64,000 nt of DNA from Cenarchaeum symbiosum A (GTDB lineage: Archaea; Thermoproteota; Nitrososphaeria; Nitrososphaerales; Nitrosopumilaceae). The translations under genes were made by a program, and so were the position numbers. The stretch's first letter is position 1. Every line of letters starts with the position of its first letter. This document shows positions 1,326 through 24,570 of the stretch, piece after piece. The notes under the pieces were generated by a model that had not been told where the DNA came from, made no database searches, and saw only the letters and a program-made list of their open reading frames with translations. The stretch spans positions 1,414,009-1,478,008 of the forward strand of contig DP000238.1 of NCBI GenBank assembly GCA_000200715.1, in the 5' to 3' direction.

Positions 1326-2576
1326 CTACCAGCTGTCGCCGTACTTGGCCTGCTCGGCGTTGAGCCTGTCTATCCTGATTCCCATGGCGGCAAGCGCGTC
1401 GCGCGCTATGCTCTGGTCTATCTCTACAGGCACGGGGATCAGCCTGTTCTCCATTTTTTTGTGGTGGTTCAGTATGTGCAGTATGGCGAGTATCTGGTTG
1501 GAGAACGACTGCGCCATCACCTCCGGCGGGTGCCCCTCTGCGGCTACAAGGTTTGCAAGCCAGCCCTTGCCCACAAGGTATACGCGCCTGCCGTTTTTCA
1601 GCACGCATTCGTCAAGATTCGGCCTTATCTCCCGCACCGAGCGCGACTTTTTGAGCAGGTACTTTGTGTCAATCTCCACGTCAAAGTGGCCCACGTTGCC
1701 CATCACCGCACCGTCCTTCATCTTGTCGATGTGCTCTTTTCGTATTATCCCGGTCATCCCTGTGCACGTTATGAAGATGTCGCCGGCGGGGGCTGCCCGG
1801 GACATGGGGACAACCTCGTAGCCCTCCATGTGCGCCTCGAGCGCCCTTACCGGGTTTACCTCTGTCACCATAACGCGCGAGCCCATGCCGCGGCAGCGGG
1901 CGGCCACGCCCTTGCCCACCCATCCGTATCCTGCAACTACGACCCTCTTGGAGGCGAGCAGCAGGTTCATCGAGCGCAGGTATCCGTCTATCGTGCTCTG
2001 GCCGGTCCCGTACCTGTTGTCAAACATGTGCTTTGTATCCGCGTCGTTTACGGCTATTACCGGATACCTGAGTCTGCCCTGCTTTTCCATTGCGCGGATC
2101 CTGTTGATGCCGGCGGTGGTCTCCTCGGTGGAGCCGAGTATCGGCATTTTCGAGAACCGGCCGTCAAAGTGGGCCTTGACATTCATGTCCGCGCCGTCAT
2201 CTGTTATCACGGACGGCCCGTGAGATAGGACCTGGTCTATGCACCAGTCGTATTCCTTTGGGTTCTGGCCTGCCCATGCGTAGATGTGTATTCCCCGGGA
2301 TGCAAGAAATGCGGCCACATCATCCTGGGTGGTCAGCGGGTTGCCGCTGCAAGCTGCAACCCTGGCGCCAAGCTCCTTTGCGCCGATCAATAACACTGCC
2401 GTCTCCTTTGTTATATGCAGGCAAAAGCCTAGCGTGACGCCCTTTAGAGGCATGGACCGCTTGAGCCTGCCGAGCGTGCTGTCTAGTATCTCCATGTGAT
2501 CCCGGGCCCACTCGTAGGAGGCCTGGCCCTTTTTGGCCAGCCGGATGTCTTTTACCTTGTATTTCGGGGGCGCCAT
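1326..2576 (-). CDS. ahcY: Adenosylhomocysteinase (S-adenosylhomocysteine hydrolase)
   Basis: NAD-dependent enzyme that splits S-adenosylhomocysteine into homocysteine and adenosine and so relieves product inhibition of methyltransferases. The 416-residue product has the family features: LGFCLHITKETAVL near the N-terminus, the NAD-binding stretch VVVAGYGWVGKGVAARCRGM, and a C-terminal PPEVMAQSFSNQ segment. The frame is open further upstream. I chose the ATG at 2576 because the protein then starts MAPPKYKVKDIRLAKKG as expected, and because a TATA-like box (TTTTAATA on the minus strand, 2598-2605) sits about 25 bases before it. metG follows 42 bases downstream, linking methionine charging with the methyl cycle. 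Confidence 0.96.
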   Translation of the reverse strand: MAPPKYKVKDIRLAKKGQASYEWARDHMEILDSTLGRLKRSMPLKGVTLGFCLHITKETAVLLIGAKELGARVAACSGNPLTTQDDVAAFLASRGIHIYAWAGQNPKEYDWCIDQVLSHGPSVITDDGADMNVKAHFDGRFSKMPILGSTEETTAGINRIRAMEKQGRLRYPVIAVNDADTKHMFDNRYGTGQSTIDGYLRSMNLLLASKRVVVAGYGWVGKGVAARCRGMGSRVMVTEVNPVRALEAHMEGYEVVPMSRAAPAGDIFITCTGMTGIIRKEHIDKMKDGAVMGNVGHFDVEIDTKYLLKKSRSVREIRPNLDECVLKNGRRVYLVGKGWLANLVAAEGHPPEVMAQSFSNQILAILHILNHHKKMENRLIPVPVEIDQSIARDALAAMGIRIDRLNAEQAKYGDSW

Positions 2577-21979: not shown

Positions 21980-22193
21980 GGATCCGCCCCCACGCGATTA
22001 AATATTGTTTCTGCAAACCGGCGTGCGGGCCGCCCCCCGGCAGCAGATGCCCACTCCCGTATGATGCTTTTCCGCGGGCCATCCCCGCAGCCAAGCGCCC
22101 GTCCTGCAGGGGCCGGCCCTTAGGCTCGGATCCTGTTGCCCCCCGCGGGCCGCGGGGTTTTTTGTTTAAATAAGGCGTGCGCCGATGTGTACC

Positions 22194-22865
22194 ATGTCGG
22201 ATGAGCCAACCTACTACATCAGCCATTCGTTCTACAAGCTTGACTCCAAGTGGAGGTGGATGGCGGACCTGGCCAAGGAGGAATCCGCAAGGGAGGTCGA
22301 GAATATAATAAAAAACTCAGGCATCAGGTTCAGGTCGTACTCGACCCTGGGGCTGCGTGCGGACGCCGACTTTATGTTCTGGCTTGCCGCAAGCAGCGCC
22401 GACGAGATACAGGACGCAGTCTCCAGGCTGTACCTGACCGTCTTTGGCAAGTACATACTTCCCACCATGACGTACCTGTCATGCACGCGCACGTCAATCT
22501 ACACCCAGGTCCCAAGGACGCTGCCCGTCGTGGCAGGCGATCCCCCCAGAAAGTACGCGATAGTCTACCCCCTCACCAAGACAAGGGAGTGGTACCTGCT
22601 GCCGGAGGATCGGAGGCGGGAGATGATGGACCAGCACATAAGGGTGGGCCAAAAGTACCCCGGAATACTCCTGAATACCACGTACTCGCTCGGCATGCAC
22701 GACGAGGACTTTATGCTTGCATTCGAGTGCGACAACCTCAAGGAGTTCCAGGACCTGATGATGGACCTCAGGGAGACCGAGGTCTCGCGCTATGTGGCAG
22801 TCGACACGCCGATGATCACCTGCATAAGCAAGGATATAGTACCGCTCATCTCCAGCCTGGGCTGA
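22194..22865 (+). CDS. Chlorite-dismutase-family heme protein
   Basis: Member of the Cld/HemQ superfamily (heme-dependent, dimeric ferredoxin-like folds). The C-terminal core TREWYLLPEDRRREMMDQHI, then RVGQKYPGILLNTTYSLGMH and DEDFMLAFECD, is diagnostic; the His in DQHIRVG is the likely proximal heme ligand. The protein is 223 residues. It could be a coproheme decarboxylase-like enzyme or a heme-dependent detoxifying protein; sequence alone does not decide. The ATG at 22194 is preceded by a TATA-like TTTAAATAAG (about 22165-22174). Confidence 0.85.
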   Translation: MSDEPTYYISHSFYKLDSKWRWMADLAKEESAREVENIIKNSGIRFRSYSTLGLRADADFMFWLAASSADEIQDAVSRLYLTVFGKYILPTMTYLSCTRTSIYTQVPRTLPVVAGDPPRKYAIVYPLTKTREWYLLPEDRRREMMDQHIRVGQKYPGILLNTTYSLGMHDEDFMLAFECDNLKEFQDLMMDLRETEVSRYVAVDTPMITCISKDIVPLISSLG

Positions 22866-22871
22866 CTATAA

Positions 22872-23612
22872 TCATGCCAGGAACTCGGAGAGGTTCCTGC
22901 CCTCTTCTGTGAGCTCCACGTGGTGGTTCCTGCCCACCTTGTTCACGCTGATCAGGTTCCACTGGTCCTTGAGCGGCCGTATGATGTTCTTGTCAAGTGT
23001 TGTATACCTTACCTGGGAGTAGTTGTCCTTCTTGGCGTTTATCTTTACCAGGCCCTTCTCGTCGGCGATCTCGGCTAGCTTCTTTTTTGTGATCCTGCCC
23101 CCGTTCTCCCTTACTATCCCCAGCACCTGGATCAGGTCGGCCCGCGGGGTGTGGATCTCAAACGTGGGCAGCTGCTGTATCTCCCCGACGCCCGTCGACT
23201 GCTGCGTTCCCTTGAAACCCGCGTACTCTTCCGCCTCGGGATAAAACGGCCGTATGTTCCGCCTGTCCTTTGCCATCATGCACGCCATCATGCACCCGAG
23301 CGCCTGTATCTTTGAGCCCGATGCCACGTTGACGTATATCGTGCCGTCCTCTTCAAGCTCCAGCACCTCCCGGACTGTCCTTATCACCTCGAAGAGGTTG
23401 GACCTATCTGCGGAGATATCCCGGACTTCAATATCCGGCCCCAGTGCTTCCCTTATCCTGCCGGCGTACGACGTAGCCTTGTCCGCCGACGGGTTGGAAT
23501 GCATCAGGAGGTAGAGCCTGTCTGCCTTGAGCCGCTTGGCTGGAATCACAATCCGGTCGATCTCAAACCCCACGGGGGCTATCTGTATGCGTAGATTCTC
23601 CAGTCCTTTCAT
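22872..23612 (-). CDS. CARF/DUF6293-like winged-helix transcriptional regulator
   Basis: A 246-residue protein with two parts. The N-terminal half is Rossmann-like, with IAPVGFEIDRIVIPAKRLKA and the GTIYVNVASGSKIQALGCMM loop typical of CARF-type ligand pockets. The C-terminal half is a winged helix (ILGIVRENGGRITKKKLAEI and a basic ...HHVELTEEGRNL end). This resembles the archaeal HFX_2341/Csa3-style regulators, which sense small (possibly cyclic) nucleotides. No Cas genes are near. Three 9-bp repeats cover its start codon, suggesting autoregulation. Family placement is moderate. Confidence 0.7.
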   Translation of the reverse strand: MKGLENLRIQIAPVGFEIDRIVIPAKRLKADRLYLLMHSNPSADKATSYAGRIREALGPDIEVRDISADRSNLFEVIRTVREVLELEEDGTIYVNVASGSKIQALGCMMACMMAKDRRNIRPFYPEAEEYAGFKGTQQSTGVGEIQQLPTFEIHTPRADLIQVLGIVRENGGRITKKKLAEIADEKGLVKINAKKDNYSQVRYTTLDKNIIRPLKDQWNLISVNKVGRNHHVELTEEGRNLSEFLA

Positions 23613-23652
23613 AGTATCTATAGTATTGATAGTATCAAGATGATATATAATA
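23610..23652. promoter_or_regulatory. Divergent AT-rich promoter with three 9-bp operator repeats
   Basis: On the minus strand, GATACTATC, AATACTATA and GATACTATG follow one another with no gap (23610-23636); the last includes the ATG of the CARF-like regulator. A TATA-like TTATATATCA (about 23641-23650) lies just upstream and is also suitably placed for the short plus-strand ORF at 23675. Confidence 0.65.
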
Positions 23653-23674
23653 ATTTTGGCGAATCAGGTCAGGT

Positions 23675-23779
23675 ATGAAATCACAGAAGACAGGCAACAG
23701 GGGCCGCTCACTGTTCCCGAGGATAAAGAGGGAGTTTGACGACGGACCTGATGAGGGCCCGTTGATCTACCGAAGGTAG
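23675..23779 (+). CDS. Small basic peptide, 34 aa, divergent from the regulator
   Basis: Encodes MKSQKTGNRGRSLFPRIKRE followed by FDDGPDEGPLIYRR. The AT-rich TATA-like stretch (23641-23656) lies about 25 bases before the ATG, as in other genes here. No family is known. Its divergent arrangement with the CARF-like regulator makes it a candidate target of the operator repeats. It may also be chance. Confidence 0.4.
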   Translation: MKSQKTGNRGRSLFPRIKREFDDGPDEGPLIYRR

Positions 23780-23877
23780 GCGTGTGTCCGTCGGCTGGCG
23801 GAGCGGCGTTCTACTGGAATGCAGGTACCTGCAAGGAGGGCCATCCGCGCCGGCCTGACCGATTAGATTACTGGGAT

Positions 23878-24570
23878 GTGTACCGCGGCGCCCGAATATT
23901 GTTCGGGGTGTTAGTGGTAGCCTTATTAATTCCATCATTTTTTGGAACGGCCGTGGCGCAGAGTGATACTAGCCAGAACGAACAGGAACTGATCAACGAA
24001 CTGAGACAGATCAGGGAATCCTTGGACAGAATCGATGACGGTAGTTTTAGGAACTTCGTCGTAAGCATGGGAATAGTGTCAATCGCCATAATCGCCACCG
24101 TATACACCGGCTGGCAGCTAAACAAGCAGCTAAGAGTGGCAAAACGGGAAGTGCGCCATCGAGTAAGGCCAATCATGGTTCAAAGTAGGACTAAAGATGA
24201 AAGACCATACAGGATAGAACAACACCCAACATTCAGTGAGCTCATGATGAAAATTACAAACGCGGGGCCCTTGCCTGCAGTCAACATAAAGTCATCAATC
24301 GGAGGGGGCATAATAAAAAATGGCGAACAAAGTGTGATAAACCAGAAACTGAGCCAAAGAAAAAATGGATCGTTGGGACCAGGAGAGCACATTCATTACG
24401 TGTTGAGATTGTCCTTAGAGGATCACAAAGAGGTGTACTGCGGTAATATGTATCACTTTGAACTCAATATAACATATGAAAGCCCCGATGAGGGTGAGGA
24501 ATACTATTATTTGTTCCGAGGTCATTTTGAGAAAAGTGGTTTAATCGTAGATGTTAAAGATATGAATTGA
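23878..24570 (+). CDS. AT-rich membrane protein, unknown
   Basis: The frame is open from 23782, but the first convincing start is GTG 23878, giving a signal-peptide-like VYRGARILFGVLVVALLIPS followed by FFGTAVAQ. A short coiled segment (QELINELRQIRESLDRIDDG), a second TM helix (VVSMGIVSIAIIATVYTGWQ) and a C-terminal beta-rich domain follow. No family recognised. The C-terminal half is much richer in A and T than neighbouring genes, with many AAA and GAA codons, which suggests relatively recent acquisition (inference). It is convergent with the asparaginase gene and separated from it by three bases. Confidence 0.65.
   Translation: MYRGARILFGVLVVALLIPSFFGTAVAQSDTSQNEQELINELRQIRESLDRIDDGSFRNFVVSMGIVSIAIIATVYTGWQLNKQLRVAKREVRHRVRPIMVQSRTKDERPYRIEQHPTFSELMMKITNAGPLPAVNIKSSIGGGIIKNGEQSVINQKLSQRKNGSLGPGEHIHYVLRLSLEDHKEVYCGNMYHFELNITYESPDEGEEYYYLFRGHFEKSGLIVDVKDMN

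Follow-up and report, generated by a model that had tools for sequence, protein, structure and literature searches.

The window analysed, which is the whole 64,000-nucleotide stretch of Cenarchaeum symbiosum A DNA, contains a gene for a putative ligand-sensing regulator and, divergent from it, a very short gene. Between the two lie a repeat and a promoter block. The features are as follows.

22872..23612, minus strand: CARF-winged-helix transcriptional regulator, 246 aa, with an HFX_2341-like N domain and a DUF6293 C-terminal winged helix (Pfam, PADLOC, AlphaFold/Foldseek)
23611-23635, within 23610-23636, minus strand: predicted 25-bp operator core, three ATA[C/G]TAT units at 9-bp pitch, over the regulator start codon (window sequence, orthologue conservation, genome uniqueness)
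23644..23655, no strand: TATA block TATATAATAATT, predicted to be common to both divergent promoters (column conservation)
23675..23779, plus strand: gene for microprotein A (34 aa, MKSQKTGNRGRSLFPRIKREFDDGPDEGPLIYRR), predicted to be leaderless; 39 bp separate its ATG from the edge of the operator (homologues, profile, pN/pS)

A chlorite dismutase/HemQ-like gene (22185-22865, plus strand) converges on the regulator gene and ends 6 bp from it. Microprotein A is followed by a 262-aa ORF (23782-24570, plus strand) that had no family match and has a hydrophobic N-terminal part; a GTG start is listed for it, and its true start is uncertain.

The regulator is assigned to the CARF superfamily on the Rossmann-like fold of its model and a conserved ligand motif. 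It matched PF19810 (HFX_2341_N; E 1.2e-34, 119.7 bits against a gathering threshold of 30) and the winged helix PF22665 (DUF6293; E 1e-23, 84.1 bits against 27), in agreement with an earlier note on this DNA that had called it CARF-like, and the PADLOC CARF3 model PDLC01847 matched its full length (E 4e-74). Csa3 and Card1 CARF models from Pfam also matched, below threshold, and the Csa3 models TIGR01884 (31.9 of 60.2 bits) and PF22662 (23.6 of 27 bits) both fell under their cut-offs. The NCBIfam HFX_2341 equivalog model gave 13.1 bits, far under its cut-off of 500. As the broad Pfam domains are present and the equivalog cut-off is missed, the protein belongs to the broad HFX_2341-like family and is not an HFX_2341 equivalog. 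Its AlphaFold model (pLDDT 88) has a Rossmann-type domain and a winged helix, and the best Foldseek matches in the PDB were Csm6, Can2, Csa3 with cA4, and Card1 (E down to 2e-8, with modest TM-scores of 0.4-0.5); a sequence search of the PDB gave no match. The CARF motif NxxSGSK (N95, S98-G99-S100-K101) and the residues R8, P13, G15, E17 and R20, which follow strand 1, were invariant in the aligned orthologues, so ligand binding is probably retained. Orthologues were present in 102 of 250 Nitrosopumilaceae genomes. The viral contigs searched contained no relative, which argues against a virus-borne regulator.

Read on the minus strand from 23636 down to 23610, the repeat is GATACTATC / AATACTATA / GATACTATG, three gapless 9-bp units, the last of which closes with the regulator ATG (23612-23610), in line with the earlier note. 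The core is AT-rich and every unit is a near-palindrome, ATA[C/G]TAT, as might be expected of a chance repeat in a promoter. The counts argue otherwise. ATACTAT occurred 13 times in the window, compared to 3.0 ± 1.6 in dinucleotide shuffles, and none of 3000 dinucleotide shuffles of the surrounding 60 bp produced the triple. A genome search, which the note had proposed, found the triple at 9-bp pitch at a single place in the 2,045,086-bp C. symbiosum genome, even with up to 3 mismatches tolerated. Shuffles, genome uniqueness and conservation in 91 of 98 orthologues (below) together rule out a chance repeat for practical purposes. A second match to the operator in the window, ATACTCGCCATACTGCACATACTGA (1469-1493, minus strand, 9.9 bits), lies inside coding sequence with no sensible start codon at 39 bp and is probably due to chance.

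Conservation of the site upstream of orthologues, which the note had set as a check, was extensive. Operators were called where at least 17 of 25 positions matched ATAGTATGCATACTGTAGATACTAT; the same 25-bp search of a control stretch reached a maximum of 16. By this measure, 91 of 98 orthologue upstreams in Nitrosopumilaceae (a near-identical second copy and the window rows being counted once or left out) carry a site with the consensus ATAGTATGC-ATACTGTAG-ATACTAT, in constant register beside the TATA box and at a distance of 26 or 23 bp from the start of the regulator. The operator columns held 0.6-2.0 bits, compared to mostly <0.6 in the upstream flanking columns. Conservation was measured in the very loci that had supplied the operator model, but neither the distant sites nor the 39-40 bp spacing described below entered the first matrix. 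All counts of genomes and loci include related genomes and are hence not counts of independent events. Beyond the family, 151 genomes of the order gave one weak match, which is about chance level. The repeats are thus part of what is, on this comparison, a conserved 25-bp operator of marine and soil ammonia-oxidising archaea.

The tandem arrangement holds for C. symbiosum but is not the basic design. Unit 1 has a central G (ATAGTAT, inverted) in 90 of 97 aligned loci, and ATACTAT in C. symbiosum and its sister species. The unit centres in relatives are therefore G, C and C, such that the two outer units are inverted relative to each other, ATAGTATG-N9-CATACTAT, and units 1 and 2 contain the palindrome AGTATGCATACT. 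The C in unit 1 of C. symbiosum produces the apparent direct triplet. The sister-species operator, ATACTATTG-ATACTAGGA-ATAGTAC, has the unit-1 change in common with C. symbiosum and has unit 3 flipped. As unit orientation varies among relatives, the 9-bp pitch is the constant, and the direct-repeat appearance is a lineage quirk.

The TATA block is conserved (~1.0-1.8 bits per column over 97 loci, compared to mostly <0.6 upstream of the block). On the regulator side, its centre lies ~37 bp from the ATG, so a leader of ~10 nt is expected and the regulator promoter is probably not leaderless. Here we depart from the earlier note, which had proposed leaderless transcription of the regulator; that layout fits the divergent gene, which is predicted to be leaderless. 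The divergent start codon lies 62-66 bp from the regulator start across orthologue loci, and the 34-aa ORF begins at this same place. The note's proposal that one AT-rich block can drive both directions is supported.

In most orthologue loci, the divergent gene encodes a protein of 22-44 aa with the core [FY]PR[IV]IREF[DE]DxDEPMxYG, which we call microprotein A; Nitrosotalea-type loci have the version YPRVRSVFEN. A profile of this family matched in 93 of 250 genomes, and matched the C. symbiosum protein with E 7e-14, a value to be read with that protein's own presence in the profile. Variation at the three codon positions of the long type was 0.085/0.072/0.489, with a pN/pS of 0.08, which indicates strong purifying selection; for the short type pN/pS was 0.25. 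Microprotein A is thus very probably translated and selected, and conservation and pN/pS rule out a spurious 34-aa ORF. Regulator and microprotein A were found together in 86 of the 250 genomes, with 16 having the regulator only, 5 the microprotein only and 143 neither (Fisher P 1e-43; for regulator and site 9e-32; both overstated because the genomes are related). All 5 genomes with microprotein A and no regulator match at the cut-off used are incomplete assemblies (53-85% complete). Nitrosopelagicus-type loci have the regulator and the sites, and microprotein A is absent.

In 12 of 96 orthologue loci, including that of the sister species, the divergent gene encodes instead a PIN domain protein of ~140 aa (PF01850). 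Microprotein A follows it in most cases, and a coiled-coil protein of ~57 aa often does. Explaining where PIN occurs takes 7 to 9 changes when mapped on a tree of the regulators, and PIN remnants persist (L018, L079), so PIN was lost, or gained, repeatedly here while microprotein A stayed. A three-part toxin-antitoxin system might account for this, with PIN as toxin, microprotein A as minimal antitoxin, the CARF protein as autoregulator, and the toxin lost in C. symbiosum, which has no PIN gene beside its operator, while the sister species keeps both PIN and A. PIN also comes first at several solo sites, and its turnover on the tree would suit such a system. VapBC-type operons are likewise autoregulated and place a PIN nuclease beside a very small acidic protein. 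In those operons, however, the regulator is not a separate divergent CARF protein, as it is here, where the small protein lacks a DNA-binding domain and mostly stands without a nuclease. Indeed, microprotein A is far commoner without PIN (about 60 loci), and purifying selection on it persists where no PIN gene is adjacent, while some PIN loci (L062, L068, L074) have the ~57-aa coiled-coil protein in place of A. The adjacency and co-conservation that characterise VapBC-type pairs are thus missing from the window and from most microprotein A loci, and we regard a toxin-antitoxin system as unlikely.

The operator also occurs away from the regulator gene. In a scan of whole genomes with the operator model, many species had several sites each, often grouped in a span of about 20 kb. 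Microprotein genes distant from the regulator bear the same operator (16-38 bits), and three weak, probably false microprotein matches had none. Among 161 unique sites, 86 lie at the regulator's own start, and in about 131-136 the operator edge is 39 or 40 bp from a target ATG, with mostly 0-3 at each other offset. Solo target promoters have a BRE-like CATG at -36..-33, TATA at -28..-23, A at -9 and C at -1 relative to the target ATG, positions that indicate a leaderless archaeal promoter layout with the operator abutting the BRE.

The genes preceded by the operator include microprotein A, PIN nuclease with A, and a second microprotein, B, followed by nurA-herA; others encode small cysteine-rich proteins and a membrane protein of the DUF7220 family. 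The same gene families stand behind sites that are distant from the regulator. In several nearly complete genomes, microprotein B is retained although the regulator is missing. Microprotein B (27-30 aa, ITNSQIITLGKYH, with ...ITNSQIITLGKYHTTQRGE... within it) overlaps the start of nurA (PF09376) by a few bases, and lies under the operator at L163, L164, L166-L170, L172, L179, L150, L151 and L148. NurA follows it at all 13 sites found, some of which are clipped by contig ends, and herA (PF01935) follows nurA wherever the contig reaches. An RNase H-fold protein is encoded on the other side of the operator from microprotein B-nurA. Families A and B are both conserved, and no Pfam model covers either. 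C. symbiosum itself has one operator site in the genome scan, and its own nurA has none (best score -6.5 bits), so its regulon appears to be reduced to the regulator and the microprotein. Small membrane proteins near operators (L143, L148, L102 and others) have a recurrent acidic C-terminal tail, such as FSEDVLEEMK, YDKDTVEEMR or FYDDDTVERMR.

Comparative sequence supports the predicted operator, its conservation and fixed geometry, the microprotein gene, its co-occurrence with the regulator, and the set of genes behind the operator. We infer that the regulator is the protein that binds it. The reading we favour, with a probability of roughly 70%, is that the neighbouring CARF-winged-helix regulator uses the three repeats as its operator; it would repress its own gene, activate the divergent leaderless gene and control a small regulon. 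One dimer of the regulator, or two, would bind the three units of the 25-bp site. At the regulator's own gene, this site is downstream of TATA and covers both the predicted transcription start and the start codon; binding there would shut off transcription. On the divergent side, the site is directly upstream of the BRE/TATA of leaderless microprotein A, where binding would most likely recruit or stabilise initiation factors. A single site could thus act in both directions, repressing the regulator while activating the divergent gene, and in relatives the operator-promoter module, placed before further genes, would bring these under the regulator. The trigger would probably be a nucleotide-type ligand in the CARF pocket, and the role may be a stress or anti-invader response. 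Activation at the targets is suggested by operator position.

Position also bears on whether the regulator is purely a repressor. It could silence both divergent genes until a ligand, for example a nucleotide from infection or damage, releases it and induces the microprotein and nuclease genes. HFX_2341 of Haloferax mediterranei is reported as a global repressor (PMC11434293), and PMC7465815 describes Csa3b as a repressor of interference cas genes. A protein bound at the operator could hinder TFB, since the site adjoins the target BRE and extends over the regulator start. The earlier note had placed the repeats where a repressor would block transcription, which agrees with the geometry at the regulator's own gene; at the other targets, however, the operator is upstream of BRE/TATA in an activator-like position. 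At solo targets it stands at a fixed 39-40 bp, clear of the start site; such a constant helical phase upstream of BRE is more typical of activators, and Csa3a, a reported activator, has a similar layout, its palindrome sitting 12 bp upstream of the target BRE/TATA (PMC8699464). Pure repression is therefore the less probable arrangement. A different transcription factor might instead bind the site and control the CARF regulator along with the other targets, the CARF protein acting elsewhere. Two near-complete genomes (G062, 99% complete; G070, 95%) have the operator at B-nurA and no detectable regulator, which regulator loss would explain, as would a different site-binding protein. In G053, which has the operator at B-nurA, only a regulator fragment is present. 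Against a different factor, the operator and the regulator gene co-occur tightly, more than half of the unique sites lie at the regulator's own start, regulator fragments occur in two exceptions, and the site is restricted to the family in which the regulator is found. We consider this improbable, and prefer the CARF regulator as the operator-binding protein.

The regulator appears to act away from CRISPR, as the earlier note had stated: neither Cas1 nor Cas10 was found in the C. symbiosum genome, and 24 relatives of the same family had no Cas10 above cut-off. The absence of a Cas10 match in these genomes argues against cA4 from type III CRISPR as the ligand. A diadenylate (c-di-AMP) cyclase (PF02457) was also not found in the C. 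symbiosum genome. A nucleotide ligand is nevertheless plausible. More tentatively, and at less than even odds, the locus may belong to a CRISPR-independent CARF circuit of ammonia-oxidising archaea. In it, a nucleotide signal would cause the self-regulating CARF-winged-helix protein to switch on a dispersed regulon made up of the leaderless microproteins of both families, a PIN RNase and the DNA-end resection proteins NurA-HerA, and the microproteins would act as peptides that modulate the nucleases transcribed with them.

The type of regulator is already known, and the operator, regulon and microprotein families appear to be undescribed; we found no paper on microproteins A or B or on the 25-bp operator. 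HFX_2341-like regulators (PMC11434293) share both domains (PF19810 and PF22665), occur in CRISPR-free genomes too and are reported as transcriptional repressors, but no operator, microprotein or nurA-herA regulon is described there. Csa3a and Csa3b of Sulfolobales, which are cA4-binding CARF-wHTH proteins, share the CARF fold and winged helix, a palindrome placed directly before the BRE/TATA of a target, and a link to nurA-herA DNA repair; over-expression of Csa3b in Sulfolobus raised nurA-rad50-mre11-herA (PMC7480081). Csa3, however, belongs to CRISPR loci and recognises TCCCN8GGGA, whereas the present system has no CRISPR, a three-unit AT-rich operator, predicted self-targeting and predicted microprotein targets. 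MM_0565 of Methanosarcina mazei (PMC7465815) is likewise an archaeal CARF-wHTH protein that has targets beyond CRISPR and prefers AT-rich DNA, but no distinct motif was found for it and its targets include a casposon cas1.

Archaea commonly have CARF regulators that are not part of a CRISPR locus, and no defined operator is reported for HFX_2341 (PMC11434293) or MM_0565 (PMC7465815). The 25-bp operator, with its exact geometry, provides a directly testable candidate binding site and lists of targets from about 100 genomes. It would connect an RNase and NurA-HerA with CARF sensing in the ammonia-oxidising archaea, a globally abundant group. The nearest relative is an uncultured Cenarchaeum MAG. 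Culturable relatives put the question of the ligand within reach. In one uncultured Cenarchaeum genome, the regulator locus is present twice (L004 and L016), the copies being nearly identical and separated by 1.1 Mb. An array of 30-bp tandem repeats, in the frame AARAAGPLTA x n, stands between the PIN gene and microprotein A; it is extended in one of the copies and almost missing from the other.
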